The notes under the pieces are model-generated. The model saw only the letters and a program-made list of their open reading frames with translations, made no database searches and had not been told where the DNA came from. A stretch of 64,000 nucleotides of DNA, from positions 1,120,341 through 1,184,340 of the forward strand of contig KV748182.1 in assembly GCA_001692895.1 (NCBI GenBank), in the 5' to 3' direction. The DNA is from Cenococcum geophilum 1.58. Taxonomy: Eukaryota; Ascomycota; Dothideomycetes; Gloniales; Gloniaceae. Below, in pieces: positions 8,101 through 50,745 of this stretch; positions within the stretch are counted from its first letter, which is position 1; the number at the start of each line of letters is the position of its first letter. Made by a program: the position numbers and the translations under genes.

Positions 8101-8640
8101 AGCTCCTAGTTAGAATATAAGATTATTATTGTAAATGAATTTACTAAAGAGAATAACTTCACAATCTATGGCAATCTTATCTATTAGAGCTCAACTAAGA
8201 GTAAGCGCGTCACCCGAAGTATTTTAGCGTCAGAGATATATAGAATGGTTAGCGGAGTTAATATAGCAATTGCAATTGGAACTACCCTAAAGATAATTAC
8301 AGATCGACTCAAACTTTCCGTTATCCCTATAATCATATACACCAACTTATATTCCCTCTATAAGTATTTAGTTAAGCTCGGTACCACAAAAAAAAAGCGC
8401 CTTATAATCGATATTATAGCACTTCAGCAATCCTACAAGCGTTAAGAACTCTTTAAGATTTAATGGATTAATGGCTAAGATAACCCGGCAGATATAATAA
8501 TAAAGGCAAACCTAAACAAGGCACTAGAGACGTTTATTAACACGAATACTCTATGTGTATAAGTTAAAGGTTGGGTTAAAAGGGAGTCCCCAGAAATTTC
8601 TTAGTCACGTAAGGTCTTAAAATATCCAGGAACTTTAACC
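5131..8640 (+). pseudogene. copia-1 pol relic (PR-IN-RT-RH)
   Basis: Polyprotein for cleavage, integration and reverse transcription. In order: protease around IIPDTRA (about 5402), where DTG is altered; integrase with FGHP-type text (about 5810), YLGPPN and NSIRKVERYH (about 6130-6290); an RT block KGVFKFKKYN-type region and YL-DIT-AYTQ (about 6900-7400); the catalytic pair as TNN in GIVGI-TNNIIIL (7636-7641, normally TDD); and RNase H with SKRVTRSILASEIY and IIYTNLYSLYKYLVKLGTT (8160-8445). The stretch 8245-8445 is the longest piece still open. The stops are overwhelmingly Gln/Trp to TAA/TAG. Confidence 0.85.
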
Positions 8641-8803
8641 GGCGGTTAAAGTTATCTAATTAGTTAGATTCTCTTACCAAGACTTTTTAGAGTATAATAT
8701 TCTACAGACCCTAACTTAATCTAGCTAATTAGGATTTTCCATCCCCGGGATAGAAAATCGCCATTAGCTTGCTTACTGCTAGCGCCTTAGCGGCCTACCC
8801 ATC
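8629..8803 (+). repeat. Palindromic module P1-P2 in copia-1 3' region
   Basis: P1 holds the hairpin aactttaacc-ggc-ggttaaagtt followed by ctaattagttagatt (8629-8670). P2 (8716-8803) starts with the inverted partner aatctagctaattag, then an imperfect palindrome gattttccatccccgggatagaaaatc, then a gccattagcttgcttactgc tail. Near-identical text occurs in gypsy-1 (15940-16090), and P2 in reverse orientation occurs in copia-2 (50586-50665). Confidence 0.75.
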
Positions 8804-8921
8804 TTTGCTAACTACTGCATTATCGCATAGTGTTTAGTCTTATTATATACTATCTGGTATTATTGCATCCTGTCTGTTTATATATATATAAATAGTAACT
8901 ATAAAAAAGAAGAGTTACTAG

Positions 8922-9131
8922 TGTTAGAAATAGGGCAAATTGCCGCCATATAAGGCAAATTGCCGTCACGTGAGGCAAGTTGCCGTCACGTGTCGCCGCG
9001 GTACTACCGTAGCGAGGAACCTAAGGTTCCTCGCCCTCACCCCTTTCTTTAAGAATATACAAAAATAAGAACAACAATCATCATACTATCTACGAACCGT
9101 AGCTACGTGATATCCCCTTATAAGTCCAACA
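8922..9131 (+). repeat. copia-1 3' LTR
   Basis: 210 bp, same structure as the 5' LTR, with the conserved hairpin at 9012-9034. It is followed by the duplication atatt (9132-9136). Confidence 0.95.
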
Positions 9132-9136
9132 ATATT

Positions 9137-9330
9137 AGAGCCATTAGTTTAATGTTAATTAAGCTTATTAAGCCCTTATCTGGTTTTTAAATATAGGCTC
9201 TTTAACATCTATTTATTTAAACCGATAGACTAATAGCGCTTTGGAATTCTTTAAGAAATTAAAAACTGTATCTGCAGTAGAGCTTCTATAGGTAGGGTAT
9301 CTAAGCAATGTTTTCTTTACCACAATTAAT
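9137..9330 (+). pseudogene. Protein-kinase-like relic, C-terminal part
   Basis: Continues the kinase relic after copia-1. With the element and one atatt duplication removed, the codons join as KADDI then RAISLMLIKLIKP, matching the D-I-RA-GLMxxELMEP helix of fungal kinase-like proteins. After one frame change, 9238-9330 reads ALEFFKKLKTVSAVELL-VGYL, matching the final helices (W/EFL...SA-ELL-HPFL). This exact rejoining shows the insertion hit the middle of an exon. Confidence 0.6.
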
Positions 9331-9999
9331 AGTAGTAGGACGACTTTCTTTAAAAATTACCTAGATTAGCCTGTCTTATACCGCATGCCATAATTACTAA
9401 AAGGTATCGTATTATAGATATTAAAGATAACGAAGTATAAAGCTATTTATAATATAAGATTAAATTAGTATAAGCCCCTAAACGAAATATATAAATATAA
9501 AATTGTAGATATATATGCCTTATACTAAGGATGGCTAAAGCTATTCCATGCCTTATAGGCTAGTTAGTAATTATTACGGTAATATAAGGGAATTTATAAG
9601 GTAGAGGATATCTCGCCATTATATAATCATAGGGAGTGCTTATAAAAACAGCGATTTATAAGAAAAAAGCCAAGTTTAAAGATAAAAAATTTAATATATT
9701 AATCCCTGTTGCTAAGTAGGAGAGTAAGTATATAATTATTATATAGGGAGGTAGGTTCTCTTATTATAACGGGCTTATATAAATGCCTCTAAACTAAAGC
9801 TTATAGATTGCTACTATATAAGGATACTAAGCTAAGGAGAAAAAGAAGAAGAAGAAGGGGGTAGTATAAATAAATATCTTAAGAGGGTCGCTGAGGCGCT
9901 AGTAGTAAGCGAGCTAATAGTAGCGTAGAATTTGGTAGAATTTAGCAGGTAACATGCCCTAGTACTATTATACTTATTGTAAAAATTAAAAGAGAGATT
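9331..9999. other. AT-rich RIP-type stretch, no gene recognised
   Basis: No domain found on either strand. At 9895-9945 it contains gcgctagtagtaagcgagctaatag joined directly to tagaatttggtagaatttagcag. These are the two flanks of the copia-2 palindrome (50586-50745), but the palindrome itself is missing here. Confidence 0.45.
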
Positions 10000-10400
10000 T
10001 GCGAGTATATATAGTTAGCAACTTAGTTAATCGAGGTATAAGTACGGCAAGAGGGACGCGTAAGCCTATATAATTGAATTGTCTATAAACAAGGATCTAA
10101 AACTAGAGAAAGGAAAGGAGAAGGAGAGTAGCGCTAGTTAAGGTAGGGTTCTTCTATATAGTCCCCCAGTTACGTAACTATAAAGTTCTACTAAGTTCTG
10201 CTAACTAAGTTCTACCGTTTTCTGCCAGTGCTATAATAGTAAGTTTAGTAGTTTTTAACGGGGAATTAGGTAGGCGACCTAAACTTTTAACGTAGTACTA
10301 TATGCTATATATTCTATGTATATAATTAATTTAGTTATCTTATTATTTAGTAAGTTTTAGTTAGAGTATATAAGGCGTGCCTAGTTATATATTGCTGTTC

Positions 10401-10428
10401 TATAGTATACTATATATAGTATACTATA
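10401..10428. repeat. Perfect 28-bp AT palindrome
   Basis: The 28 bases starting tatagtatactata read identically on both strands. It lies inside the fold-back structure. Confidence 0.85.
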
Positions 10429-11140
10429 TCTACCCTACCTCTTTACTCTTCTTCTATCTAGAGGAGTACTTTTAAGTGTTAATTAATGAATAAGAAAGGA
10501 TTTTATTCTATCTTTACTTACTATCTACCTTTTAAAAATATAATACTTTTATAGAAGCCTTTAGTACCAGCTCTAAAGCCCACGCTCTTTTAAAGTTTTT
10601 CCTATTTTTTCTTTAAAACCCTTTAGAATCTGGCTCTATACTAATCCATCCTTTATATGTAGAATAATTAGTAGTTCGTCTTTATAACTAACCCCTTACT
10701 AATTAGCTTAAAATAGTTAGCCCGCGTATATTGAAATAATTTTAGTAGGATAAAAATTCTTAACAGCCACATAGACTAAGGGGTAGGAATAGTTTTAATA
10801 ATAACTAATATATTATTTTTTATAGTTACTTAATGTATATAGTACTACGTAAGTTATATAGTCTTTTAGCTAGGTAGCTACCCGGGCGCGTAAGTTTAAC
10901 CCCTTTTAGTAGGCTTTTGAAATAAAATAAAATTTAGATAAGATATTAACTTAGAACCCTTCTAAAAATAATATTTAAGGCGCTAATCGGAGCTATAAAG
11001 TATAAAGATGCCACTAAAAGAAGAGATAAAAATGTATATTATAATCTTATTATTAAGGACTTTTTAATGGAAGCGACTTATTAAATACGTATTTAATTAA
11101 GTAAATGAAGATCGTAGCTCCGCGTTAGTACTAGGAGAAT

Positions 11141-11320
11141 AAGTACTACCTTATTATAAAGAGTTAGTGCTATAAAAGAGCTTCTTAGATTAATTTCTTA
11201 CGTTTTTTTAGTCTACTAATAAATATTAAAGAAGAAGAAGAAATACTACTATATTATAAAGAGTTAGTGCTATAATAGATTTTTGTATTAATTTCTTACG
11301 TTTTTTAGCCTACCTATAAA
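11141..11320. repeat. Two-copy direct repeat of about 100 bp
   Basis: Two consecutive copies share attataaagagttagtgctata and attaatttcttacgttttttta at a 100-bp spacing (11141 and 11241). No coding sense is seen. Confidence 0.65.
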
Positions 11321-12010
11321 TAATAGAGAGTATAAATTGAACTAATAGTAGCTAGTACTAAGAGTTGGTTTTATAAGCTTAAGCTTTAGCTAAGCGGATT
11401 TCTATAACCCTAGGATAATAATCTCTTTAGTATAATAGTTAGATTTATTAGAACTTAGGGAACTAACTTTAAGTTACCTACTTATTTTGTGTTATAAGCT
11501 ATTCTTTATACTCGGATATATTTAGTAATAGATTTAGGGGTTAAATCTACTTTAAAGCTCCTAGAGCTCTATAAACGCTAAACTTAAATAGGACTAACGG
11601 TTACCTATAAAGGTTAGTACTCTAGCTCTAGTCTAGTCTAGTCTAAATTAGCTTCAGTCTAATAAGATTACTAAATATATTAGAGTCTATCTATAACCCT
11701 AAGATTAAGCTAATACTAGTATTCTAAATCTAATAACTATATATTACAGCGATAGCAAAACTTGGTAGAACTTAGTAGAACTTAGTTAGTAGAACTTTAC
11801 AGTCCTCCGTACTAGCAAGTTGCTATAAATTGCTGTATATTGCGGTTACGTAACGCGAAGATCTTATAAAACATTAAGCGGCGCTACTCTTTTTCTCCTT
11901 TCCTTTCTTTAGCTTTAGATCTTCGTTTATAGACAATCTAATTATATAGGCTTGCGCGTCCCTCTTACCGTGCTCGTACCTTAATTAACTAAGTCGCTAA
12001 TACCGTGTAT

Positions 12011-13149
12011 GCTTAATATTCTAAGAAATTAAGGAGACTCTTCGCTGTGTCTAAAATAGTAAGGTAGTAGATTGTTATAGTAATTTAATAATCGTTAGTT
12101 AATCTCTTTAATGGTATATTAATATTTAATACTAAATTCTTATTAAGCCTCTATATAAATATAAGGTGCGAACCGCGTATAACTAAGGTCTTAGCCGAAA
12201 TACACGCCTAGATATTACCTAAAATAGATACCTTATATCTTAGCCGGGTACTATATATCGTCCCTATATTACGTATAATATAGTATATATCTCTAATACT
12301 TAGTAAAATCTATAAAACTGGCTATTTTTATATATTCTCTTTTAATAACTAATATATTTTAGTATTAAACATATCGCATTTATATTAAACGTTTAATATT
12401 GTTGACCTAAATTAGGTTATCTTATTATCGACTTAGAAATCTCCTATTGATTTAGTTATTGACTTAGTTACCTACCCCTTATTTTTATTGCCATCCCCCT
12501 ACCCCCTTCTCGTTCTTGTTTCCTATACCTTTCTTATATATATATAGAGACTCTTAGAGCTATATTTAATAGATAGAGTCCTTATTCTTTTTTTATAATT
12601 AGTGCACGGATATCCAATTAATAAATATTTAATATTTAGTACTAGTGGCACCACTATACCTCTCGTTAACAGTATATTAAAAGTCTATCTTTAGTTTTAG
12701 TGGCTTGGTTATAGGTATATAAGAGTATATATATTAAATCCCGTAAGAGTCGCAATAGAGTTATAATTACTCTGTCTTTTTAGCCTTTAGTAATATAGAG
12801 CGGGATAAGTTATAAGGCAATTACCTTTATAAGTTTAATATTTATTAATGCTAGTCCTTTTTATATAATGCTTTAATTATATCTATATAAATAAAAGAGT
12901 ATATAAATCGGTCTACGTGCGGGGAAATTAGTAGCCATTATTTTAAGTGCCTACTTGGTGTATATTAAGCTTTAAAGTAAGCTATATTATTAGAATAAAG
13001 GAGGAAATAGAATATGTACGGTTTAGTATTGCTCTTAACTATTCTGCCTAAAGTAATAGAGTTAGATCCTTACTAAATGGTTATATAAGCGTAATATACC
13101 TTAGTGAGAACAGATATATCTTTAGATACGCTGCGAGCCTTAAACTAAT
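12011..13149. other. AT-rich RIP-type stretch, no gene recognised
   Basis: No domain found in six frames. A polypyrimidine-rich part lies at about 12490-12540. The text gtatataagagtatatatattaaatcccg (about 12715) resembles 23229-23257, upstream of gypsy-1's gag. Confidence 0.4.
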
Positions 13150-14190
13150 TTATATTTACTAATTCTTATACTTTGTCCACTATTATATATTTAATCTTCT
13201 ACCTTTTTCCTACTGCTCTTCTAGGGCTTATACACGCTTAGAATAAACAACTTACGGTAGTTTCTAACGGAGTTTTATAGGAAGTAATGGATATCCTCGC
13301 GGATATGTCTCTTGCAGTGATCCGGGCTTTAACGATAATATAATGACTTATCTTTTACCACCTTTAGCTTTAGAAAGGATAAGGGTAAATGGCTTAGATC
13401 TTTTATATACTCTAATATAGAGAACCGCTAACTAAACTGTAATATTTCCGCGACTTAATATATTACTAGGAGCTTATATAGCTATAAAGTACCTTAAAAA
13501 TAAATATATTATACTACTGTAAACCTAGCTAGGTAAGCCAAAAGTAGGTAGAATAGTCTATGTATTTAGTATATCTTAGCCAAGTAATAGTAAAGTATTA
13601 GTAGACGTCCTATAGTGGATATTTAACGGTACTAGCGGTAACCAGAAAGGGAAACTATTAACTACTTAAAATTTTAATAATAATAGATGTTATCAAATTA
13701 ATAATGGTAGTATTTCTATAATACGTTAGAATTAGTTTCCCGACCCTATCTCTAGCTAACTAAGGTCTACCTATAAACAATAGTGCAAGACTAATCTATT
13801 AGTACCTACGGATCTGTAGACTAATTCCACGTATACTATATACTGGGTTTAGCAATAGCCAACAGAGCCTAGCGTGTTAGGGTTACCTAGCGGTAAAGAT
13901 AAGCATTATATAATATGCTCCGACCTTAGTATTATTGCTAGCGTACTTTAGAATAGCCCTTTAAACCTACTTCCCTAGTAAGACCCTTAAAGTAACGCTA
14001 TTCCTAATTTCTAGTCCCGTATAGTATACACTACCAACCCCCTCTTAACTAGTATTATTGCATCTTCCTTATCTTAGTTAGCTGTTTCTAAATAATTGTA
14101 AATATAATGCTATAATATATATCTCTTTATATTCTTTATTTTACTTAGACCTTCGGGATAACACCAGAACTATAATATTCCCTACTCTAA
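13150..14190 (+). pseudogene. Decayed gene for a small secreted fungal protein (DUF7492-like)
   Basis: A hydrophobic segment (IIYLIFYLFPTALLGLI, about 13180-13232) is followed by His-Ala-stop(Trp)-Asn-Lys-Gln-Leu (His codon 13233). This resembles a signal peptide cleaved just before an N-terminal His. Then follow NGYPRGYVSCSDPGFN (about 13287), YLLPPLALERIR, KLLTT-NFNNNRCYQINNG (about 13650), LVPTDL-TNSTYTIYWV (about 13800), and LPSGKDKHYIICSDL (about 13880). The pattern matches fungal secreted proteins I recall as DUF7492; the name is from memory. Stops fall at Gln/Trp positions. One frame break near 13273 (gttttatagga) is explained by a single lost T. The His start could mean a copper-oxygenase-like fold, but that is inference. 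No neighbouring gene gives context. Confidence 0.6.
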
Positions 14191-15399
14191 AGGGAGTAAA
14201 TAAGATAAAAAATAATAATATATACGCTCTAATAGATAGAGTCTATATCCGGTAAATAGAGTTTAATAAAGCGTTTGCATCTAATTCTCTAGCATACTAA
14301 ACTATTAATGTATTAATTTTCCTGTATCTCTAGTTATCTTGTTAATTTATCTATTATAGATAAGTTTGGGTATTTATACGGGATATCTATAGGACTAAGA
14401 ATTAGTAATAGTAATAAACGTCTAGTTAATTCTAGAGTAATAATATAATAATTGTGTAATAGAAAGTCTTTGCGTCTAATAACTATAAAAAGGGGCTCTT
14501 TGCCAACTAAATAATATAGTTTAGGATTCTATAGCTTATAAAGAAAACGAACTTACCCTATCCCAACTTACTTTTGCTCTTCCTAGTATGCTTAAAGAAT
14601 ATTTATAAATAGTAGTTATATGGACCTTTTCGGGAAGAGGATTAGGAAGATATAAATGTAAATTAATTAAGGGAGAAGTTAAAATAGGCGTGGGGATTAT
14701 ATAGACCCTGAAAATTAGCCGAGACTTCTCTATAGAGCGTTATTAATATAGCACAGCTTAGAATATAAGTGGCTTTTTAGTAATAGATGGCTGTATCTTG
14801 CCCTAATTAATTAGAGCTCTTTATCTAACAAACATGTATAAAATATTATATAATTGGCCCAGACTGCTAGAGTTTATATTCTAAAGAAACGCCGCTTTTA
14901 AGGCTTGGAATCTAGCGTAGTTTTACTAGATTGTTCTAAGGTATAAGTATAAAGTAAGCTAGCGGAGAGGGGCTAGGGTTATTAGTATTCCTAATAATAG
15001 GTATTACTCTTACGTATAAAGATTTACTATATAGGGTGTAAGCTTCTTACGACCTTTTAACCTCCTATATGTATTAGCAGTGCAGCTAGGTATACTTATA
15101 TTCTTTTATATACTAAAGCAACAGAAGAGGTCGGTTAGATATTTAGAGATATACTAACTAGAAAATAAACGGTGCTTTAGTGCTAGGCCATCTAGATAAT
15201 AGGAATTTATAGAGATAGGCCATGCGCTTTAACGACCCTTGGCATAGTGTTAATTTCTATATTAGTAATAACTTGCAGATAATATATTAGAGACACGTTT
15301 ATAAAAGTATAGTTTAGTAAATTAAGCTTTAGGAAACTACTTAGAGTCCTCTAAGCAACCAGTAATTATAATTTATTAAAATTAGTAAGCGCTATACAA
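14191..15399. other. AT-rich RIP-type stretch, no gene recognised
   Basis: A partly open + strand stretch around 14740-14950 reads YKWLFSNRWLYLALIN and ARVYILKKRRF, but I cannot assign it. The rest shows only TA-rich decayed sequence. Confidence 0.35.
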
Positions 15400-15823
15400 A
15401 CTACTATTTCCTCTTGCCCCTTTAGCATTCTTTAGTAGATTATACTAAAACGAAATTATATTTTCTTTTTAATGCTATAGTGTAAGGGCGTGAAGAGACT
15501 TCGGGGAAGATTCGAAGGAACGATATATATTCTATCTAAATCTAAGGGTATATAGCTCTCGCTAAGAATAAGACGTTGCGTAAAGAGGAGAAGGGAATAA
15601 CAAGAGAGTTATATATTAAATAGTTAGGGTCTTAGTAGTCGATACATGCGCATATATATACGCGGTCTTTAACTAACTTTAATAGAATTTAACTAATCTA
15701 GTAGAACTTAGTAGAGGTTAATTAAGCTAGCATAATTCGGTAGAATTTGGTTAAAGCGTTAGAATTTATCTATTAAGTATTTTACTAAGACATTCCTACT
15801 ATAACTGGGCTAGTCCTATTATA
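15400..15823 (-). repeat. Probable gypsy-1 3' LTR (left edge uncertain)
   Basis: On the - strand a purine tract (ctaaagggggaggtac, 15824-15839) follows the chromodomain and 3' non-coding region. The next bases, TATAATAGGACTAGCCC, look like a RIPed TG start of an LTR running toward lower coordinates. I could not find the second LTR, so the length is a guess. It contains decamer repeats of the gtagaattt type (15690-15770). Confidence 0.45.
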
Positions 15824-15939
15824 GTACCTCCCCCTTTAGCCGAAGGTCTAAAACAATTTAATTTGGTTAAGACTTTATAACTTATTACGTTTTTATATAT
15901 TTGTATTAGGTAGTAGTATAGCGTTTTACCAGTTCTAAT

Positions 15940-16090
15940 CATAAATAGACTAATTAGGATTTTCTATCCCTAGGATAAGAAATCGCTATTAGCTTAGTTA
16001 AGGCGGTAAGCAGAACTAATATCTTTATAGTAGGTCTTAGCAAAGCAAATCTAACTAATTAGACAACTTTAACCGCTAGTTAAAGTTCTT
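15940..16090 (-). repeat. Palindromic module P1-P2 in gypsy-1 3' region
   Basis: P1 (16048-16090) reads, on the - strand, gaactttaactagcggttaaagttgtctaattagttagatt in two adjoining parts and matches copia-1 8629-8670 almost base for base. P2 (15940-16010) contains ctaattaggattttctatccctaggataagaaatcgctattagctta. Relative to the element, P2 is in the opposite orientation to that in copia-1. Confidence 0.75.
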
Positions 16091-16239
16091 TAATATCTTA
16101 CGTATTATATAACCGTGTTATAAGCGTTATAATATATTTTAAGTCCTTTTTAATTTTAAGCTTCCTACTATCGTGTTTAGTGTATTTATATTAGGTGGTA
16201 ATTATTTACTTTTATATCGTATTTATCTAGCTAAAGTAG

Positions 16240-19200
16240 GCCGTAAAGAATAGTCCTTATAGAATTCTTTTACTAGGGAAGGCGTATTAGTTTTAATTTG
16301 CTTATAAGGTTCCTAGGTTTATATTTTATATTTTTCCTATTTAATAAGAAGTTTAAATTATTTAGACTATGTTTTTCTATTATATATTATTAATTAAGTT
16401 AATAAAGTAAGAACTATTACCGTTGTTAATAATTATAGGAGGTAGTAGTAGCACTTCACGAGTTATAGGTTTACTTTTTAAGGGTTATAGTAAGTTTATA
16501 TAAAATATTAGATATATTTTTATCTTAGTCGGCAGTTTAAGTTTATAAGTGTATAGACTTAGTTTCTTCTTAATTTAGTATAGGCCCGTAAACTTTTAGT
16601 CTAGTTTCTTTAAGGGTCGTTAAGTCTTTAGGTTTTATATATTTAGGTAAACTATATTACCTTCCTTAAAGTCCTATATAAGAGCTCGTCCTTTATTTAT
16701 ATGCTATTGCTATACTATTTAAGCGTACGCTAATTCACTTTATAATAATTCCGTTAACTACTTTATTTAATTAATAAAGTTATACGCATTAATTAGTTAA
16801 ATCCTCTTAATTATAGATTCTATTATATTAATTTTAGGTTATAGTTTAAATCTAAGTTAAGGGTCTTATCTATAGGTTACATAGAACGGCGTTACGCCTA
16901 TTAATTTATTTCTTATATTATTTGCAGTAAACTTAGCTAAAGATAGCCACTTTTCCTAGTCGTCTTGTAGGTAGGAACAGTATATTTATAGGTATTATTC
17001 TATAATTACGTTCGCAATTTTAATTTAACTATCTATCTCTAGATAAAATGCAGTTAAGAGTTATATTTATATACTTAATCGTTTATATAAAGCTTTCTAG
17101 AAGTCTAAAATAAACTAGCTTCCGTAGTTAGATATTATTAAATTAGAAAGTCTATATAGCTTAAAGACGTACTTAATAAAATATTTAGCTACTAATATTA
17201 CATTAATTAAGTCTATAGGAATTATATATCGCATTTTTATAAGACGGTTAATAACTACTATAATATTTATAAACCTATTACTATTAGGCAGGTTAACTAC
17301 AAAGTTAATTAAAATATCTTACTATCTTTATATTAGAATTAGTAACGGTTAAAGTACTCTTTACTTCTTTATATAAGGGGTCTTCCTATATATATTTATT
17401 CCGTATACTTAAACATATTTTCATATATGGTTATATATTATAGGCTAGTAATATACTTATTAGATAATCTTATACGTCTTTATATAGCTAGGATGCCCTA
17501 CTATAGGGGAATTATATATAAATTCGAGTATCTTAAATTATAAGGGTTTAGAATTTGGGCTTACTATTTTCTATTAATAATATAACTAATTATTATAGAT
17601 TTCGTATTTAGCGAGTGTAATATTCTTATATTACCGTTTTTCTATTTAAATCGTTTTTATTACATTTGCTATTTAGGGGTTATTCTTATATTTATGTTCT
17701 ATTAATTTATTAATTTTTATATCCCACTTATTAATTTCTAATTTATTCCTATTAAGCTCCGCATTTAAAAATATAAGGTATCTATTCACTTGCTCGCAGA
17801 GATAGAGATATATTCTAAATAATGTATTGTATTGGGGGGTGTAGGCCCGAGGAGAGGGTAATCATCTCAGCCTGCTGTATTGCATAGGTTCCCTACTGTC
17901 TCAAGCAGCGGTAGATGATTACACACTCATTGCCCCACTCGGGCCTACCGCAAGCCTAAGAGGCTGCAAAATCTATCTATAGGGTGGAGGGTGGGAAAGC
18001 GAAAAGCCGAAAGGCTGATTGTAATAGATATTAATGTTGCTGTTTGGAGGGAAGGCGTAACTTCGCTTTAAATAGACATTTTTATCTATTTACTTGCTTG
18101 TAGAGATAGAGATATATTCTAAATAATGTATTATATTGGGGGGTGTAGGCCCGAGGAGAGGGTAATTATCTCAGCCTGCTGTATTGCATAGGTTCCCTAC
18201 TATCTCAAGCAGCGGTAGATGATTACACACTCATTACCCCAAACAACGCGTACCGCCAGAAGGTAGTGGTACGAGGCCTGCGCCCAACAACCAATATAGA
18301 AGTAAGAATATATCATCTCTTTGCGCCCGTGGGGTATCGAAGACCGTTTAGGTAATCTCGCCTCAGCCTGCTATGCAGTGGTAGATAATTACTTACGTAC
18401 CGCCAAAACCTAGCGGTATAAGGCCTACGCCCAATAACCATAGAAGTAGGAATATATGTCGTCTCTTTATATAGAGTATCGTTAAAAACCGTTCGGGTAG
18501 GTAAATATCGAAGGCTATTAACGACGACGACGTAGGAAGCTAGAAAGCGTCAATTCAAAACCTGTTAAAAAACCCTATGGGAAAAATTATCAGGAAAGAC
18601 TACTTATTAATAGCTTATGGAAATCGCGAAGCTGTTCGTAATAAATTACAAGGCTATTCATAATAAATCGCGAAGCTGTTTATGGGTTCGCGATTCTCCA
18701 AGGGGTAAGACGTTTTATCGCGACGACAGCACAGCGCCGTATGGCATAGTATTATTGAGGCTATAAAACGAATAAACAACAAAATCTCTATCAAATAAGC
18801 CTTATTTCAAAGCGAAAAGCCAAAAGGCTAATTGTAATAGATATTGATGTTGCTGTTCGGAGGGAAGGCGTGACTTCGCTTTGAATAGACATTTTTATAG
18901 TTTTTTAAAGCGTTTAGGGGGGAGTAGAATTTATAATTAAGTTATAATCCGTTTGTTAGAGGGGTTTATAAATAAATTTTATAATTATTATATTAATAAG
19001 TTAAGCTTTTGGTTAAGTTTGCTAGGTTAGTATATAATCTTAAAGTTAAATTATAAAAGGTATTTAGCCTAACAAATTTAGTATTATATTAATTACTTTA
19101 TAGTTATAAAGTACTATAGGTTTTTATAGTCCGTTAATACGCATATTAGAAATAACAATTCTCTAAGTTCTAGACGCTATTATTTAAAGCATTTAATAAT

Positions 19201-21120
19201 TATAAGCAGTTCCTTATTATATATTTTATAGTTTAATTTAGTAGGGGTAAGTTTCCGGGAGAGAAAGGCTACTAGGCGCAGCTTACTATTCTTATTATAT
19301 TATAATAAAACTCCTTCTAGTATATAATTAGATAAGTCTATTTTAATAATATATTTAAGGTTTAGATTAAAGTAGGTAAGAATTAGAGTAGTTATAAAAT
19401 AATATTTTGGGTTATTAAAAGCTTATTTATATTTAGTAGTCTATTTAAATTTTATATTCTTCCTTATTAAGTTTACTAATAGCTAAATAATTTTTAAAAA
19501 GTAATTAATAAATTAATAATAGAAATTTATAAATCTTAGAAATCCTTAGATATTTTATATACTACTAGGACTTTCCTAGTTTATAATTGCTACAATTTTC
19601 TTAGGGTTTATTTTAATTCTATTATAGGATATAATTAGGCCTAAGTATATAACTTTAGACGTGTAAAACTTGCATTTTTTAATATCACATTATAAGACTG
19701 CGTCTTATAGGCATTTAAGGACTATTTAGATATACTTTTAATACCTAGAAAGCGAAGATAAATAGATAAAAATATTATTAATATACGCGGTAATAAATAC
19801 ATTAAGGAATTTGCGAAGCGTATTATTAACGTATTACTAAAATATACTAGGACCGTTCTTTACACTAAATAGTATTACTAGGTATTTAAAGAGTCCCTAT
19901 TATATACAGAAAGCTATATACTTCTTATCTCCTTTATAAATACGGATTTAATTAAAGGCAGTAACTATATTAAGCTTTATAAAGTATTATAATTTTAATA
20001 AGTAGTTAAGTATTTCTTAAAGCAGAGGAATTAGATATCGTTTTTAAATTATAATTATATTTAGGGCTTAATAATTAATATAAAACCTTAAGCCTCCTTT
20101 AGGTTTCTTAATAAATAGTATAAGTAAGGTAAATAGTAATTAACTAGGGCAAATAAATCCTTTCTTTAGGCACTCTTTAAGGTATTATTATATTATAAGC
20201 AGCTTTTCTCACAATATGCCGTATAATAGGCCGAACGCTAGCGTTATACTAGGTTTAAATTCTATCTTAAAATTATACTTATCTTAATACGGGGGTAGTT
20301 AGTCTATAAATTATTTTTTAAACGGAATTAATTAGATTGTAATATTCTTTAGGTATAAGAGGTTAGGGGTTAATATATTACTTTAGTTCCAACGCCTTCT
20401 TAATATCTTATAGTCTTGTTTTCTTATTAATAAATAAAAGGGTGCGGCTTATATTATATGAATTTTAAGGGGTTTTAATATATTATCTTCGCATTCTTTA
20501 CCGCGATTAGTAGTTATAACTTTATTATATTAGTTTAAGGTTTATAGTAAGGGTAATTTATATTATATTAAATTTAAATAGTTATATGCATATTTATAGG
20601 GCAAGTAGTATTTTAAGTAATAACTTTAGTAGTAGGTTGTACGGAATTTTAGTATTTCTTTAACCTAGCTAATTAAAGGGTTATGTTATTTTAGCTATCT
20701 ATATCTAAGTATTACCTTATAATGCTTTAAGGGTGTTATAAATAGGGAAATATATTTAAGGTATTTGCCTATCCACATCTTTATAAGAGCGTAGTGCGTT
20801 AGTTCGCCGTATATTAAAGGCTTACTATTAAAGCCTTATAGGCCTTAGGGCTTATTAAGTTTTTTTAAATTTAAGCGTTAGGTTTTTATATAGTTTGTAT
20901 TAATAAAGCCTATACTAGTAGCTCCGCTATCTATAAGGATTTATACTTCCTTCTATTTTCTAAGTATTTAAATTTTACTAAGTATATTAAGGGGGTTATA
21001 TTATATATTAGCGCTAGAAGAGCCTAGATACTTATACTCTTCTACTTCTTATTCTAAGGCGCAACTTAGCCCTAGGATAATTCGTTTTCTAAATTAATTA
21101 AAGATAAGATACTTTATAGT
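16240..21120 (-). pseudogene. gypsy-1 pol relic (PR/RT/RH/IN/chromodomain)
   Basis: Polyprotein for reverse transcription and integration. RT (about 20500 down to 19560) shows ECLKKGFICPS, KKPKGGLRFYINY, FIKLNIVTAFN and the catalytic motif as YINNIFIY (Asn codons 19774-19779; normally YLDD). RNase H spans about 19500-17720 and is split by the inserted element. Integrase shows KWLSLAKFTANN and GVTPFYVTY (about 16960-16870) and a basic tail with NIVYLN and FTGLY-I. A chromodomain-like segment (EPYEQI-type, TL-AN-N) lies at about 16400-16240. Nearly all stops are TAA/TAG at Gln/Trp. The protease is not clearly seen. Confidence 0.8.
17781..18896. mobile_element. Short non-autonomous element, two tandem forms, nearly free of RIP
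   Basis: Copy 1 (17781-18084, 304 bp) and copy 2 (18085-18896, 812 bp) share about 165 bp at the left (tctattYacttgctYg... to ...cactcattRcccc) and about 90 bp at the right (gcgaaaagcc...tagacattttta), with different middles. Copy 2's middle holds a duplicated block of about 150 bp (18250 and 18398) and repeated cgcgaagctgtt. Each copy is bordered by TA. A weak terminal inversion (tctattca) is visible. CA and TG are common here, unlike the surroundings, so it either arrived after RIP or was too short to be hit. It lies in gypsy-1 RNase H. It could be a MITE or SINE-like unit. No reading frame is seen. Confidence 0.6.
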
Positions 21121-21130
21121 ATTAGCCTAT

Positions 21131-24540: not shown

Positions 24541-24581
24541 TATTTACTACTAAGGTTACGGTATTAATAAAGTTAAATAAT

Positions 24582-29869: not shown

Positions 29870-29871
29870 TA

Positions 29872-30443: not shown

Positions 30444-30479
30444 ATAATTTATTGCTTAACGTCCGATTTAGATCCCTAT

Positions 30480-31671: not shown

Positions 31672-31679
31672 ATATGTGA

Positions 31680-34819: not shown

Positions 34820-34827
34820 ATATGTCA

Positions 34828-39154: not shown

Positions 39155-39168
39155 TGGTAAATTATATA

Positions 39169-42687: not shown

Positions 42688-43108
42688 TATTACAAACGTT
42701 TTAAGTACAATATTATAACTACTAGGAGAGGGGTTAAAAGCAGCTAGTTAGTTAATTAAGGCATAGTCTAGGATAGAACTAATAGATCTATATAACGAGG
42801 AATAGTAACTAAGGTTATATAATATGCTATATATTAAATAAGAGGAACGGAAGGGACTTACGTACCTTATATATAAGACGTACTTTACATATAAGGAGGA
42901 TTCTTAAGAGTACGGTTGTGTATTTAAAGGACTATAGTCCCTACCTAGATAGTTCTTCTCTTTTTGTAGTGAATCTTAGAATATAATTGGAGTTAATCTA
43001 TTAGGTAACCACTCCACCAGTTTATATTACGTTTTTGACTTCTTATTTACCTATATACTCAGCCTATTAATAAGTCTACTGTAGTTCCTGCTACAAGGCT
43101 TTATTATA
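42688..43108 (+). repeat. gypsy-2 3' LTR
   Basis: 421 bp, starts TATTACAAACG (TG changed to TA) and ends GGCTTTATTATA, followed by the ctaag duplication. Confidence 0.93.
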
Positions 43109-44717
43109 CTAAGTCTAATTATCTAACACCTAATACGGCCGCGGCTGTTTTAGTACCTTACTTAACTTCTTTCCTCTCCGCTTAGCGGGTTTTAGTAATA
43201 GTATATAGTAATTTACTTAGATATCTATAACTTAGTAATTAGTGCGTAATAAGATTATAGTAGGTGTTATACACTATAACGCGGACGCTATATATCTGCT
43301 AGGCTATAATAGGTTCTTTAGGGTGGCTATTATAGATCTATATAGTTTTTATATATATTAGCTAGCGTTTAATAAAGTTATATATAGTTATAGAATTGCT
43401 AATAATATGTTTTTTTTTAATAAAAATAATTATAAGACCTAAAAAGACCTAGGTAATAAAAATAATATATTCTAAAAGCCTAGGTTCTGTTATATAATTA
43501 ATAAACTTTAGGAAATAATATAAAATATTAGTATTAAGTTATTCTAATATCCGCAATTTCCGTAACGCGGATATTATTAAATTTACTAAGAACCTTTACA
43601 AAACACGCTTAGACGTAATTCTAGTGGTTTCGCATAAACGTAGTTAGTAAGCTTATGAACTGATTAAAAATCCATACTAATAGAATTGCGTCTAAGCTTG
43701 CTAAGGTAAGGAATCACGTCTAAGCTTACTAAGGTAAAGGTTTTTTTATAAATCTTGCCAAAGTCTCTTGGATTAAGAAAACGATTACTATCCTAAATTA
43801 GCTTAGTAGACGGTACGGATATTGCTAACCTTTTTTGTTAAAAGCTAATTCTATAGCGACTTATTTTATATATAGAGCGGTTACCTTCTTTAACGAAATT
43901 AATATATATCTTTATAGTAGCTATTATCTTAAAAATATAGTTAAATTAATCTGTAGAACTAGCTCTCTCCCTTAATACATTAGTTTATATTCATCTATTA
44001 TTGATAAGGATTATCTAATTAAATTAACTAACCTAAATCGTCATGCTTAGAAATACGAGGCTAGTAATATTTATAAAATCTTATATAAAACAATCTATAT
44101 AGCTTATTCCTTAGAGTTTAGTCGCTTAATATAAGGTAACTAATACTCGTCCTTTCTGCAGAATGGAATCTAATATATTTTACACCAAAAATATATCCTT
44201 GGCGCTCGTATAGGCCTCTTTTAGTTCTTACTACCATGTGGTTTCCAAATAGAATTTAGTAAGAGCTTTAATAAAGACTTCCTTAATCCTTTATAGTGTT
44301 CCTAAATATTCTTTAAGCCTTTATATAGGCTAAATAGTTCTTTAGCTTAGTCTAAAGCTTTCCTAATATATATAGCTTTATAGCCTTTCTGAACTATTTA
44401 TAGCCCTTATAGCGAGTTACTCGGCAATTAATAGAATAGTAAGAGGATAGTAGGTAGGAATTACTAAGGATTATATTAAGTAGGAAGTAAAAAAGAGGCT
44501 TCTACGTCTTTTAATGCGTCCTCTAGGTATTAAAATAGGACTATAACTAACCTACAATATCTACACCGCCTATATATAAATTATAATAGAAAATAAAGGC
44601 AGAAATACGTAGTGTTTTAACTACTTTATTGCCAAAGACTTTGTAAGTTATTTAGGCGCCAGTTTAGGTAAGAGGAGGACATTTTTAGTTAGTTTCCTTT
44701 GTTAATCGATCTATAAT
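43109..44717. other. AT-rich RIP-type region, no gene recognised
   Basis: Continuation of the DNA left of gypsy-2. A two-copy direct repeat of about 31 bp lies at 43690-43745 (gtctaagcttRctaaggtaaRg). A partly open - strand reading around 44300-44100 (LYKGLKNI-EHYKGLRKSL) is not assignable. The same DNA resumes after copia-2 at 51022. Confidence 0.4.
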
Positions 44718-44883
44718 TGTCGGAACGTTAATCACGTGACGTGGTCACGAGGCCACGAAGCGAGACTAGCTATCTGACTTTGGAGCAACCCCTTTCTTCT
44801 AGAATTAACTACCAACTTTAACACCGCATACGTACCACTACAAGTGATATTTGTGCACGTTGATAAAGTGAGTTATACCGACA
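44718..44883 (+). repeat. copia-2 5' LTR
   Basis: 166 bp, begins TGTCGGAACGTTAATCACGTG and ends ATACCGACA. It is flanked by ataat on its left. Confidence 0.95.
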
Positions 44884-44995
44884 CTGATTAGTAGACGTAT
44901 AGATTAGGAAATATGTAATAGCAAAGCTTGAGAACCAGCACCACCCGGTATTCGATAATCGCCAAGCTATCGCCCTATTTTAGTTGAAGGAGAAA

Positions 44996-45220
44996 GCTAC
45001 GTTACCCTTGAAGCTCGAGACCACGTATCAGCTTGCTGATACGTAAGATCGCCTAGAGAATCGTATCTTTACTTAGAGAGAGCTACGTTATCCTTAAAGC
45101 TTGAGACCACGCATTAACTTAACCGTTAACGCGTTAGATCGCCTAGAGGACCCTCAAAGCTTAAGACCACGTATTAACTTAACTGTTGATGTGTAAGATC
45201 GCCTAGAGGACCGTATCTTT
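44996..45220 (+). repeat. copia-2 leader: three tandem hairpin units
   Basis: Three units of about 70 bp (44996, 45081, 45151) share aagctYgagaccacg and agatcgcctagagRa. Each has an inverted pair between these blocks: perfect in unit 1 (acgtatcagc-tt-gctgatacgt, 45023-45044), with one mismatch in unit 2 (gcattaac/gttaacgc), and weaker in unit 3. It lies in the RNA leader upstream of gag, where packaging or translation signals would be expected. Confidence 0.75.
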
Positions 45221-45395
45221 GCTAAGAATCGTCTTCGGTCTTCAGTTTTTAAGAACTGTAGATTTGTTAAGGGGACATGTACACACCCTTACACCCTTAC
45301 TTTTATATACCTTAAACCTTGAACTTAACCTTAAACTCGAACCTTTAGAACCTCTACTTAATTCTGAACCACAATATCCACAAAGACACGATAAT

Positions 45396-47100
45396 ATGGA
45401 AATTAACTAGAAGGAAAAAATTGCTAAATACGGCAACGGAATTAACTTGGAGACGGCTACGGATAATAACCTAGCGGAGTATCTGGAGACTAAGATGCAC
45501 CTATATACACGGTATAACCTTATAGACTTTTTATTATGGACAGCGTTTTAGGAAGACTTTAAAGACTTTACGCTAGAGCTCTTTAAACGAGTACGATCTG
45601 AAACTAGAATAGGAATCCGTAACTACCTAGTTAAGAGAGGAGTATACGTTGTTAAGCAAGATAAGAGACATACCCTTGGCAGTGTGCTGACGGACGTCGC
45701 TAATGAAGAAGAGCCTTACGAATGGACGGATGAAGAGATTGACCTAACCATTATTGAGATTGGGCCAATGATTACTATGGCCCTGCGGAACCGACTTAAT
45801 TTGACCTTAGATAAGCTCGCTGCACCACTAGCTACTCCAATCGCTGCACCACTAGCTACTCTGGCCGCTGCCCCTGCTACCCCTACTACCCCCCCTAGAT
45901 CTACTCCAACCGCTGCACTGCCAGCCACTCCGATTGCTGCCCCCGCTACCCCTACTACCCCTCCCGGTCCTTAATCCTCCAATTATAACCAAATCCACGC
46001 CCTTATCGACCAATTACTATGGCTAAGAGAGCAGCAACCGCAGCAGCTATAGCAACCGCAGCAGCTATATATACATACACCACCTAAACTAGCTATGCCT
46101 AGTATAGAGTAGGGACCTAAGCAAGGACCTAAGTAAGGACCTGGATACAGTAAGGAGGTGGCTATAATTGTAAAGATTTACATAGACGACTAAAAGTACG
46201 ATAGAGTTAATGACAGCTTTAACTTTAAGCTAACTATCTTTTATAACATTTGTAAGAGATCTGGCTTACCACCAGAAGGCTATATAGTGGCATTCCCTAG
46301 CATGCTAAAAGGGCTTGCTTAGGACTACTACTATAATAGTAACCTTGAGTTAAGACCTTTTACTAAAGCCTGTAACCATATATAACAGTTCTTTAAAGGG
46401 CCAGAATACTACCGCAAGAACCTTACGGAGTGGAATAGTATAACCCTCTAAGGAGTTATGGACGAGAACCCTAATAAGTTAATCTATTAGAACTTCTAAC
46501 TACTTATAGATAAGCTGCTAAAGCAACGTTATGGACTATACCTAGACTTCCGTATAAACCGCATCCTTATAAATAAGCTGGTTACTGCTTGCCAGGGAGT
46601 ACCAGCATGCCGTATTGCTGTCTCCAACCCTTTAGAAGACCTCTCTTAGTTAATTAGTAAGCTATAATCCTCTATTATTGCGTAGGAAAAAGAATACCCC
46701 CTATAGGCCTTAATAAGATCGTCTTACTAAGCCTTTTTTATAGATTAATGCTACTACCAAAATAACCAGAATCGAGACCGAAACACCAATCGCTACGGTA
46801 GCAATTGCCCCTATAGAACTAACGGCAGACTAAAGGCTAAGTGCTATATCTATAAGAAGGAGGACTGCCGTTTGTAGAAACATATAGAGGAGAAGCGTAG
46901 TCGGTCCAGAGACGACTATAAGAGACGCTTTATTGATATTAAAGGCCGTAATAAGGGTAACTTTAATAACTACTTTAAGCAATACGTCGCTGCTTGCGAA
47001 AGAGATAAAGATGACGATTTAGACTTCGAAGCCTACATATAAGACGCTGATGACTCTGGGAGCGATGCTAGAGAACCTAACGATAGTTCTACCTATATTA
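45396..47100 (+). pseudogene. copia-2 gag relic
   Basis: Capsid precursor. An ATG at 45396 (MEIN, then TAG for Gln) starts the likely frame; the same frame is open upstream from 45219. Next comes a basic/acidic N-terminal part (YEWTDEEIDLTIIEIGPMI, about 45715-45775), an Ala/Pro/Thr-rich repeat (LAAPLATPIAAPLATLAAAP and following, 45816-45974), a Gln-rich stretch, then the capsid-like FNLKLTIFYNICKRSGLPPE, YYRKNLTEWNSI and LLKQRYGLYLDFRINRIL (about 46210-46570). A CCHC-like knuckle is partly kept (CYIYKKEDCRL-KH, about 46840-46885). Few stops, nearly all TAA/TAG at Gln/Trp. Confidence 0.82.
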
Positions 47101-50100
47101 CTACCTTTAGAACACTTACTACGGAGGAAGCAACCTCTATAAGCGTAGAGCTAGCTAATAAGGCTTATACATACCTGCTTACGGCTTTAAAACTTACTAC
47201 GAAGTCTACTACGGAACCTTACACGGAGACCGACCCATTTGCCTACAGTACGGCTACAGCCACAGCGTCACGATACACCTTAACGGTCTTTATAGGAATT
47301 ATAATTAATACAGGTGCTTCGCGTAAGTCTATAGCTGGCTATGGTTAATTCTAAGCTCTATAGGCCGTAGATAAGTCCGTAAGTCTTAACACGTTAACTA
47401 AGGGTTAAGTGACTGTCCAATTCGGGATCGGAGCCTCTACGTCTATCGGAACTATAGATGTCAACAGCCCTATAGGTAAGGTATAATTCCATATCGTTAA
47501 AGCAGATACTTCCTTCCTACTTTGCTTAGCAGATATGGATAGACTCTATATTAAATACAATAACCTAAAAGACGTTATCATTACTCGCACTAAAAAGGTG
47601 CCAGTAGTCAGACGATTTGGCCACCCATTTCTCCTATAGAGCTTCTCCCTACAGTCTTATTTGGTCGAGTCTTTTAATATAAACCCTTACTACTTAACTG
47701 ACGTAGAACTACGACGTCTATACCGTTAATTTGGTTACCCGTTAGTTGACAGACTATAAAAGCTTCTTAATAAAGCTGGCCACGGCTATAATACTGATAG
47801 ATCTGCTATTAAAGAACTAACTAGACTCTACCACTACTGCTAGAAGTATAGTAGATCTCTAGGTAGATTTCGCTTTACCTTATAAGACGACGTCAATTTT
47901 AATTATAACATTATCGTCGATATTATGTATATTAGCGGCTCCCCCCTATTACACGTAGTTAATGAAGCAACTTGATTTTAAACTGGTAGATGGCTACAAG
48001 ACATTAGCGCCAAGCACACTTAGGATGTTCTTTAAATGTGCTGGATTAACAGCTATTTAGGACCACCAGACTTAATTACCATAGACGCTAGGAAGAACTT
48101 TGTCAGTAAGGAGTTTAAGCACTATGCTACCACTATGGGAGCAACTATAAAGTCAGTTCCAGTCAAATCACATAATTCCATTAGAATGGTAGAACGCTAC
48201 TACGGTCCGCTACGACGAGCCTACCAAATTATTACGACTAAAATCCCTGAAATCAGCAAGGACATGGCCCTATAAATGGCCTTCAAAGCCATTAATGACA
48301 CGGCTGGCCTAGAAGGCCTAGTCCCTATACTCCTAGTCTTTAGAGCCTACCCCTAAATGGTTGAATTGGACGCGCTATTACCTTCAGTTATATAGCGAGC
48401 TGCGGCTATTAAGAAAGCAATGGTGGAAATTTAGAAGCTATGAGCTGAACGATAGATTGCTGATGCTCTTAATATGCGAAACGGACCACGAACTAACGCC
48501 ATTCACGGCTTCCCACCTAGTTCGCCTGTCTTAGTCTGGAGAGAAGGCAATACTGGCCAAAGCGGTTATTGGGATGGGCCATATATACTGCTTGCCGTTA
48601 ACGGCAAGACCTGCACCGTAAAACTACTAAATAGGCCTACGACCTTCCGCTCTATAGTTATAAAACCTTATCTACTGGACCTACAAAACCCAGTCGAACC
48701 ACAAGAGTCTGTTAAATTAGATAAACTAGTACCTTCACCAGCCGAACCTTAATCGTTACTTAAGGCTAAACTACAGCTACCGCTAAAGCGAGGTAGAGGC
48801 CGCCCCCGTAAATACCCATTGCTTACGGCCGTCGCAGATACAGCTGTTACGGATACTACGACGGATATAGGCGCTCTTACGGGTAATATTGCGGATATTG
48901 CGGATATTACGGATATCGCTAATATCGCTATCTACTTACAGGACGATGATACCGCAGATATGGCTAATACTACTATTTACTTATAGAACGATAGTAACAC
49001 CCAATTCAGCGCTTTACGACAAAAGGAGGTCACAGGCCTACTTAAGAAAGGTGTCTTTAAGATTATTAAACTACACAATATGCCAAAGGGGGTCAGACTC
49101 TTTAATTCACGGTTTGTTGATAAGATTAAGAATAAGGGAACCGATAAAGCCTTTAAGAAATTACGACTTGTTATACAGGCCTATAATAACTTAGAGAAAG
49201 AGCTAGTCCTTACTTAGTCACTAATGATTTAACGAGTTAGTTAGCGGCTGATTCTCTATATTGCTGCTATGCTACCGTAGATATAACTCTACCTCTGAGA
49301 CATCTTATAAGCCTACGTCCAGTCTACTATGAACCTGAACCGCGAGTTCTATATATAACCACCATATGAGCTAAATAAATAATTGGGAATTGATACGGAC
49401 TCCATTCTAAAGGTTATAAAGCTACTTTATGGAGTACCTGAAGCTAGAAACCACTGGTTTAAGACCTACTATTTATACCACGTTAATTAGCTGTAAATAG
49501 ACTAGTCCACGTACGACCCTTGCTTACTTTACAGTGATAAGCCTTTCGGAATCGTTGGCTTATAGACTAATAATACACTATTCCTTGCAGACGATACCTT
49601 TACAGAGGCTAAATAAAGCGAACTATATAAGGCCGAATTTATAGCTAAGGAGCGAGAGCAACTGACCGCTAATATACCAATTAAGTTTAACGAAGGACTT
49701 ATTTAATTAATACGAGACGGGAGCATTACGCTAACGTAAAAGCGCCAGTGTGAGAACCTTAGTATGGTTAACACTACGCTAGCAGACAGCACTAGCTCTA
49801 GAGGAGTTACGCGTGGCCTACTTATGCTAAAGGACTAGTATATCGCTTAATGCGCCAGAGGAGCCTATATCGCCTTAGTTTATTAGCTAGAGGCCTTATA
49901 TAACTTATTCTTTACTGCCTAGGTAATTAACCTAGTTAAAGATAATATAAAGAGTCTTAATAGGCGATTAAGCTAGCAGATTAAGAACGCGAATAGAGGC
50001 CTAAAGTTTATTAAGCTAGACGCCAATACCTTATAACTCCTGGTATTTACAGACGCTTCCTTCGCTAATAATAAGGACCTATCTTCGCAAATTGGCTACG

Positions 50101-50600
50101 TACTTGTACTAGCAGACGCCTTAAATAAGGCAAATATTGTTTACTGGTCTTTAATTAAGTGTAAAAGAGTTACTAGGAGTGTATTAGCCTTAGAGCTGTA
50201 TAGTATAGCGCACGGTTTTAACATAGGCGCTATAATTAAATCTACGCTAGATAAGGTCCTATAGGTTAACCTACTACTCGTTCTCTATACTGACTTAAAG
50301 TCTTTATACAACTGTCTCGTCCGACTAGGAACTACGCAAGAGAAACGCTTAATAATTAATGTAATGTGCCTTCGCTAAGCTTATGAACGAAAACAGATTA
50401 CTAAAGTTAAGTAGATTAATAGAGACACTAACCCTGCGGACGCTATGACAAAGGGTAAACCCTGTACGGCACTATTATAGCTTATTAATACGAATCGAGT
50501 CGAATTACGGGCCGTAGGGTGGGTTGAATGGACGGATTTAGCTTCGGTCTAGCGTTATACGACTAGGTATAACGGGCTTATACTATACAGAGCCAGCCGC
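47101..50600 (+). pseudogene. copia-2 pol relic (PR-IN-RT-RH)
   Basis: Protease: FIGIIINTGASRKSI (about 47290-47335; DTG reads NTG). Integrase: FGHP-type text, MCWINSYLGPPDLITIDARK (48036-48095), NSIRMVERYYGPLRR, and a C-terminal domain SGYWDGPYILLAVNGKTCTV (about 48570-48630) with FRSIVIKPYL. RT: KKGVFKIIKLHNMPKGVRLF, RFVDKI, YL-DIL-AYVQS, YGVPEARNHWF, and the catalytic pair as TNN in GIVGL-TNNTLFL (49569-49574; normally TDD). RNase H: FTDASFANNKDLSSQIGYVL (about 50050), CKRVTRSVLALELY, LYTDLKSLYNCLVRLGTT, NPADAMTKGK. The 101-codon frame at 48889-49194 is a shadow in another phase. Confidence 0.88.
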
Positions 50601-50745
50601 CAAGGCGCTAGTAGCAGGCGAGCTAATAGCGATTTTCTATGCCGGGCATAGAAAATCCTGATTGGCTGGTTCAACGGCATAGCAGAATTTGGCAGAATTT
50701 AGTAGAATTTGGCAGATAACGCTCCAGCACCGTTACACGTGGAAG
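50586..50745 (+). repeat. Palindromic module P2 and decamer array in copia-2 3' region
   Basis: Contains aaggcgctagtagcaggcgagctaatag, then the palindrome gattttctatgccgggcatagaaaatc, then ctgattggctgg, followed by repeats of agaatttRgYag (50693-50722). It is the reverse complement of the copia-1 module at 8716-8803 and sits just before the 3' LTR. Confidence 0.75.

Follow-up and report, generated by a model that had tools for sequence, protein, structure and literature searches.

CCAAT-flanked palindromic modules shared by copia and gypsy retrotransposons of Cenococcum geophilum look like exchangeable regulatory cassettes

Analysis of a 64,000-nucleotide stretch of the Cenococcum geophilum 1.58 genome (contig KV748182.1, C7:1120341-1184340, hereafter the window) and a search of the genome (177.19 Mb, 162 contigs) revealed that two short palindromes, P2 and P1, are a strong case of non-coding modules common to different superfamilies of long terminal repeat (LTR) retrotransposons, copia and gypsy. 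Judging from their flanking motifs and their placement, they resemble regulatory cassettes that can be exchanged more than hairpins that jump on their own, and are most likely CCAAT-associated LTR promoter/enhancer cassettes. An initial annotation of the window had noticed P2 in the elements copia-1, gypsy-1 and, in the opposite orientation, copia-2, and P1 in copia-1 and gypsy-1; this observation is confirmed, the palindromes lying where they had been placed, and the accompanying interpretation, a tiny mobile hairpin or a regulatory cassette exchanged by template switching, is partly supported. The copies concerned are the following.

8631-8653, + strand: P1 palindrome (23 bp) in the 3' untranslated region (3'UTR) of copia-1, followed at 8655-8663 by TCTAATTAG, read as an ATTGG box altered by repeat-induced point mutation (RIP)
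8723-8769, - strand: 47-bp P2 unit of copia-1, dyad core 8733-8759, CCAAT-type boxes on both sides, orientation opposite to that in copia-2
15948-15994, - strand: 47-bp P2 unit of gypsy-1, dyad core 15958-15984
16065-16087, - strand: P1 (23 bp) in the 3'UTR of gypsy-1, an element on the - strand
50621-50667, + strand: 47-bp P2 unit of copia-2, core 50631-50657, right flank CTGATTGGCT

Abundance of P2 and P1 and of their flanking boxes

The dyad of P2 is odd and 27 bp long, GATTTTCYAT-NCCNGGN-ATRGAAAATC; that of P1 measures 23 bp, AACTTTAACC-NNN-GGTTAAAGTT. With at most two mismatches allowed in the arms and the reversed pattern as control, the genome contains 3,404 P2 sites (control 4) and 3,564 P1 sites (control 1), so that chance does not account for the recurrence of either. 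Within the window itself the excess of perfect palindromes with arms of at least 10 is modest (seven, compared with 1, 3 and 3 in three random sequences). P2 forms the core of a 47-bp unit, CYAAT-N3-P2-N3-ATTRG, inside a wider conserved block, AGCYAATRGC - P2 - CTRATTRGYT; CYAAT at the exact 3-bp spacing is found at 3,303 sites on one side of P2 and at 3,300 on the other (control 0), under the same mismatch limit as the count of 3,404 but with a longer pattern. P1 followed by N5-ATTRG occurs at 1,770 + 1,768 = 3,538 sites (control 0).

The contexts of P2 are many and extend well beyond the three elements of the window. Forty of the 3,404 P2 loci, those with zero arm mismatches at the first places on contigs C1 and C2, comprise 21 of copia type, 15 of gypsy type and four of neither, these being rough classes based on BLAST matches (E <=1e-6) to short panels. 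By the same assignment, 20 of the 3,564 P1 loci, taken from C1 and chosen for having no P2 at <=2 arm mismatches, comprise five copia, five gypsy and 10 of neither type, and a looser P2 match (<=5 mismatches) lies within 200 bp in 13 of the 20.

CCAAT-type boxes flank nearly all copies of P2. Among 102 fetched copies, kept of 412 loose matches after weak pattern scores had been dropped, CCAAT or CTAAT stands on the left in 97 (CCAAT in 28), ATTGG or ATTAG on the right in 100 (ATTGG in 53), and both boxes are present in 95. The window is strongly RIP-like, with a TpA/ApT ratio of 1.63 and a CpA+TpG index of 0.49. Because the changes that RIP produces at CpA/TpG are C-to-T and G-to-A, we take CCAAT/ATTGG, the spelling found in the less mutated P2 copies, as the older form of the box. 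For the complementary ends of P1 and P2 that had been pointed out earlier, the best reading is that of CCAAT-type boxes which RIP has shifted toward CTAATTAG, a word that looks largely like a product of RIP. Some caution is warranted here, as RIP can drive unrelated motifs, CCAAT boxes and others, to converge on CTAATTAG. The right flank of P2 in copia-2 and in locus L073 is CTGATTGGCT, which read backwards gives AGCCAATCAG and which we take to be a good NF-Y site. Across 29 copies of one copia family, RIP-context sites are variable at 13-27% compared with ~2-3% elsewhere, and outside RIP contexts the CCAAT-box flanks decay slowest of all (0.017). For C. geophilum, the accessible text of PMC5445492 gives RIP as 'Probably'.

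P2 inside LTRs

The initial annotation had also singled out 9895-9945, where the two flanks of P2 are joined, as a possible empty site of a mobile hairpin. The P2-less junction is real and belongs to an LTR segment, not to a hairpin target site: it sits within a solo LTR, recognised as such by its target duplication and by its similarity to LTRs that occur as a pair in another element.

9765-9972, - strand: solo LTR-X without P2, with a perfect 5-bp duplication, CTTAT, at 9760-9764 and 9973-9977

LTR-X (~200 bp) supplies the left flank, GCCGCTAAGGCGCTAGTRGTAAGCGAGC, of many P2 copies, and its copies are bordered either on one side, by a purine tract (L107, L111, L112, L113, L028), or on the other, by a shared internal start. 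On contig C12, two same-strand LTR-X matches 7.3 kb apart enclose matches to reverse transcriptase (RT), RNase H, integrase and, weakly, SH3_Tf2-1 (E 0.002); LTR-X therefore belongs to a gypsy element. Copies with P2 measure ~243-252 bp (L146, L021, L028) and those without ~195-219 bp, leaving out the first copy of L061 as well as L083 and L078, whose ends were mis-set. The 20 P2-less LTRs that were read are those most similar to the copy in the window, several of them nearly identical to each other; the segment adjoining the P2 position (the head) keeps CYAAT in 19 of the 20, as CCAAT in five of those. Neither result that the initial annotation had named as refuting it, copies confined to the three elements with alignable flanks or an absence of empty sites, was obtained. 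Genome-wide, the head has 2,203 matches and the head with P2 1,653, the difference of 550 being a rough upper figure for P2-less heads since one mismatch limit was applied to patterns of different length.

In another LTR type, that of L066, P2 is part of the terminal repeat. Among the 100 places listed of the 1,653, pairs of head plus P2 spaced 5.7-6.5 kb apart number five on the same strand and none on opposite strands. A 311-bp P2-LTR query found four partners ~5.7 kb from full-length copies, ending at query positions 225-236 with P2 included; one of the four is also among the five same-strand pairs. In L021 and L146 a TATA-like stretch follows P2 by ~40 bp, counted by eye.

Two other readings of the head and its unit were considered and dropped. 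A tRNA-derived short interspersed nuclear element, suggested by the presumed A-box-like word GGCGCTAGTGGTAAGC, was abandoned once the unit had been recognised as an LTR; a scan of eight loci with ARAGORN gave no tRNA, and the sole Rfam match below E 1 in nine loci was CssrB (25.3 bits against a gathering threshold of 76, E 0.042), which was taken as chance. A 205-bp miniature inverted-repeat transposable element (MITE) was set aside given the purine tract and the internal flanks on the two sides of the unit.

Some arrangements near these sequences were noted in passing. L068 and L072 contain minisatellite-like arrays of GGCAGAATTT/GCGATAATATGGCAG-type words to the right of P2, and similar words occur beside P2 in LTR-X. 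Three P2 sites fall within 1.8 kb at C1:876451, 877352 and 878235 (L072, L058), possibly in nested LTR elements. At 124-174 of L106, the locus of a P2-less LTR, there is a perfect hairpin with 23-bp arms (AATAATATATATAAGTAAGGTAA...).

Probable capture of LTR sequence by copia elements

The location of the modules within the elements of the window is defined by the following features.

3124-3333, + strand: 5' LTR of copia-1, followed by CTAATCAGT
8770-8795, - strand: LTR head segment adjoining P2 in copia-1
8922-9131, + strand: 3' LTR of copia-1
~15482-15823, - strand: putative 3' LTR of gypsy-1, preceded by a purine tract, recognised from the sequence, no partner found
16130-19700, - strand: decayed pol stretch of gypsy-1 with RNase H, integrase zinc finger and SH3_Tf2-1 matches
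44718-44913, + strand: 5' LTR of copia-2
50568-50737, - strand: LTR-X relic with P2 in the copia-2 3'UTR, ~170 bp, internally deleted by inspection, antisense to copia-2
50856-51047, + strand: 3' LTR of copia-2

Each module had been described as lying between pol and the 3' LTR, which holds for copia-1 and copia-2 with their paired LTRs; for gypsy-1 the placement is less secure, its pol being on the - strand and its 3' LTR lacking a partner. The domains of the decayed stretch identify gypsy-1 as Ty3/gypsy, RT not being seen in the stretch examined.

Copia-1 8618-8767 aligns inverted (+ strand) to gypsy-1 15950-16100 over the entire 150 bp at 73%, and copia-1 8716-8794 is 82% identical to the P2 segment of copia-2 in the opposite orientation. 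The pol regions of copia-1 and copia-2 share 55.6% nucleotide identity (the RVT_2 match of copia-2, E 4e-6, falls below the curated cut-off). Gypsy-1 and a second group, gypsy-B (L094 group), carry both P1 and P2 in the 3' non-coding part, with the orientation of P2 relative to P1 flipped between the two groups.

These shared segments can be traced in part to LTRs. In copia-2, P2 lies in a relic of LTR-X, and L146, a copia 84% identical to copia-2, contains at the equivalent site a P2-bearing LTR-X that is longer and points the other way; a clean 5-bp duplication is absent around LTR-X in both. The copia-1 relatives L083 and L078 match the half of LTR-X beyond the head, and the P2 side of their module is thus LTR-derived. 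The region of the copia-1 head segment ends at 8795 in seven of 40 scored copies, and the copia relative L002 is without 8588-8689, P1 included. L065-like copies have a purine tract of the pre-LTR kind between P1 and P2, which suggests that a piece consisting of P1, purine tract and LTR was taken from a gypsy 3' end. L145, a candidate P1 donor, has no Pfam match on the P1 strand and RT only on the other strand. Capture by copia is demonstrated in copia-2 and partially in two copia-1 relatives. The main explanation for what copia and gypsy share is that LTR or 3'-end sequence of gypsy type lodged in copia 3'UTRs and was then amplified.

Proposed function and its limits

We put at about an even chance that, in this fungal genome marked by RIP, P2 and P1 serve LTR retrotransposons as cis-regulatory cassettes, shared via capture and recombination. 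The P2 unit would consist of two inward-facing CCAAT boxes, each 3 bp off, bracketing the odd palindrome, and the P1 cassette of its palindrome with a single ATTGG box 5 bp away. Because P2 stands in LTRs where the element has a CCAAT box of its own, it would most likely recruit the CCAAT-binding complex, along with a dimeric factor on the dyad, and may serve as an upstream activating sequence that is independent of orientation. Insertion or recombination would have brought a gypsy-type LTR or 3'-end sequence with P2, and P1 upstream of it, into copia 3'UTRs, where it would have been copied along with copia; the first moves of P2 between LTR families presumably took place between promoter regions, through gene conversion or ectopic recombination. 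The regulatory half of the original proposal fits, given fixed CCAAT-type flanks, a place within paired LTRs and occurrence in several families. If P2 and P1 drive LTR transcription, copia and gypsy would both answer to one set of host factors in a genome rich in repeats, and such joint control could help explain their joint expansion.

A number of observations weigh against this reading. We infer the CCAAT identity of the boxes from the motif, by comparison with the NF-Y consensus. In a sample of 43 copies not drawn by similarity most flanks are CTAAT (33) and ATTAG (30), with CCAAT in seven and ATTGG in 12, so that the ancestral CCAAT is itself a presumption. In favour of the reading, purine/pyrimidine identity reaches 100% at -12 to -1 and at +2 to +10 (78% at +1) in 14 representative, partly related P2 copies (L005/L033/L089; L091/L094), and beyond the block it drops unevenly on the right and stays partly high on the left, where the LTR head is common to the majority of the 14; yet as the flanks are common by descent, their conservation is no independent proof of function. 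Outside RIP contexts in the 29-copy family, the decay of P1 (0.022) and P2 (0.025) is only a little slower than that of the rest (0.029) and of the end of pol (0.033). The P2 copies of gypsy-1, gypsy-B and the copias are in the 3'UTR, not the LTR, and it is not evident how they would act as promoters from there. Within the L066-type LTR, P2 is only ~64-75 bp from the repeat end with no clear TATA box seen, and L066, one of the four unclassed P2 loci, matches neither the copia-type nor the gypsy-type panels, as is true of half of the sampled P1 loci. Lastly, either gain or loss of P2 in LTR-X would fit what this one genome shows.

Alternative explanations

P2 and P1 might instead act as RNA hairpins of the retroelement transcript, as signals for dimerisation, packaging, 3'-end formation or reverse transcription, which we consider unlikely; they would then be comparable to the conserved hairpin of GalEa elements or to a retroviral dimer initiation site. 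The units do fold better than shuffled sequences (copia-2 unit -22.4 kcal/mol, z -5.6; copia-1 z -3.8; P1 z -3.9), albeit weakly in gypsy-1 (z -2.0, with 8/200 shuffles as good), three elements have the modules between pol and the 3' LTR, and fungal GalEa copias bear a palindrome-containing hairpin after the 5' LTR according to the accessible part of PMC5445492. However, the folding check recommended by the initial annotation turned out to be uninformative for P1 and P2, because any palindrome folds on either strand, an RNA hairpin gives no role to CCAAT-type flanks at fixed spacing, and P2 is also part of LTRs. A consistent sense-strand bias toward G.U over C.A is also lacking, the counts, which are single changes and not independent events, being 18:2 for G.U in the copia-2 family and 3:8 against it in copia-1. 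We judge it quite unlikely that the modules reflect plain common descent with loss, that is, an ancient part of LTR elements in which RIP-immune words survive amid scrambled surroundings and so only seem specially conserved. Neither GATTTTCTAT nor AACTTTAACC, the words of the arms, has a CpA or TpG in a strongly RIP-like window, and the excess variability of RIP-context sites described above is in line with such an effect. Yet the P2 segments of copia-1 and copia-2 are far more alike than their pol regions and stand in opposite orientation, a 3'UTR common to copia and gypsy by descent is not expected, and the RIP-prone CCAAT/ATTGG boxes persist in part of the copies. Exchange by template switching, in its simple form, does not account for the orientation flips within element families (L146 vs copia-2; gypsy-1 vs gypsy-B).

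The cassette reading has also to be set against a P2 that moves by itself, an independently mobile nano-element of 47-61 bp, foldback or MITE-like, inserted repeatedly into LTRs and 3'UTRs. Such a self-mobile hairpin is possible, the positive evidence consisting of its symmetry, its number and the empty counterparts, and we nevertheless hold it decidedly improbable as the explanation. P2 shares with foldback and MITE elements its short length, high copy number and terminal inverted repeats: the repeats are near-perfect, the copia-2 unit folds end to end, thousands of copies exist in both orientations, counterparts without P2 occur at the same LTR position, and the left contexts differ between gypsy-B and LTR-X. 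It differs from them in that the sampled copies lie mostly inside LTR elements (36 of 40 in a copia- or gypsy-type context, and L066, of the other four, in an LTR) and in that no direct target duplication was seen at its boundaries on inspection of 16 filled and 20 empty LTR segments aligned with each other (36 copies). In this alignment the left side is common through AGCYAAT and the right side resumes at TAGGGT or at GGCAGAAT repeats, the mirror word ATTRGCT to the right of P2 being inverted and belonging to the dyad. The missing duplication leaves the self-mobile hairpin unsupported, and loss of a deletion-prone palindrome would leave identical empty sites.

A further conjecture, rather unlikely in our view, is that P2 and P1 are transferable between unrelated LTR superfamilies by a precise, orientation-free mechanism in which the CCAAT-bracketed palindrome serves as the joint. 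If true, the modules, which have >6,900 sites, would rank with the smallest DNA units that are selfish or convergently captured, and retrotransposon promoters would evolve by exchange of 50-bp modules. LTRs with and without the cassette, in both orientations, constitute a natural series for studying the movement of modules between element families.

Relation to known systems

CCAAT boxes in LTRs have a precedent in human endogenous retroviruses (ERVs): the available text of PMC11853044 describes CCAAT motifs that are conserved in the U3 region of ERV9/LTR12, bound by NF-Y and required for open chromatin. The likeness consists in the presence of CCAAT in the LTR, as expected of a CCAAT/NF-Y-type LTR enhancer, P2 being known here as DNA sequence; ERV9/LTR12, as that text presents it, has tandem ~41-nt repeats, whereas P2 is one CCAAT-bracketed palindrome, occurs across superfamilies and is fungal. 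The complex LTR insertions of Triticeae attributed to template switching (PMC1950507) resemble the present case as complex LTR elements with common pieces, and differ from it in that here a cassette smaller than an LTR is found in both orientations between copia and gypsy.

Portions of PMC5445492 describe GalEa elements with LTRs of the form TGT...CA, on average 235 bp, and a conserved hairpin site with CHSeq1 after the 5' LTR. Copia-1, with 210-bp LTRs (TGT...CA), likewise has CTAATCAGT at 3334-3342, directly after its 5' LTR, which resembles CHSeq1 as given there; CHSeq2 was matched loosely, by eye, and copia-1 itself gave no Pfam match. The GalEa hairpin described in that source follows the 5' LTR, whereas P1 and P2 lie in the 3'UTR or LTR, and in gypsy as well, none of them directly after a 5' LTR. 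A shared origin of P2 with the GalEa hairpin motif was considered and dropped, as the less mutated P2 flanks read CTGATTGG and not CTGATCAG.

A literature search, from which subscription papers were mostly absent, found no paper on a fungal LTR retrotransposon combining a CCAAT box with a palindrome. A search on CCAAT, LTR U3, inverted repeat and promoter returned, by title, human ERV LTR12 and orthoretroviral LTRs only, and wider searches showed, among the titles listed, no such shared cassette, although PMC5445492, in the part available, does describe C. geophilum copia elements.

Other features of the window

A third perfect odd palindrome, GCGAGGAACCTAAGGTTCCTCGC, is present in both copia-1 LTRs at 3214-3236 and 9012-9034; it was perfect nowhere else in the fetched sequence, the second listed source, L035, being the same place. 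At 11787-12000 and 10010-10144 the window matches the L145 sequence (TGTTACGGCACTAATAG...) downstream of P1 and the purine tract, with an inverted partial copy ~1.7 kb away. Between the retroelements, 13271-13945 matches Pfam DUF7492 (PF24320, E 9.7e-47) in one + frame with stops read as X, and is, by this match, presumably a gene of the host or a fragment of one. A direct repeat of 3.86 kb with 86% identity, at 55149-59006 and 60161-64000, occupies the window's right edge.

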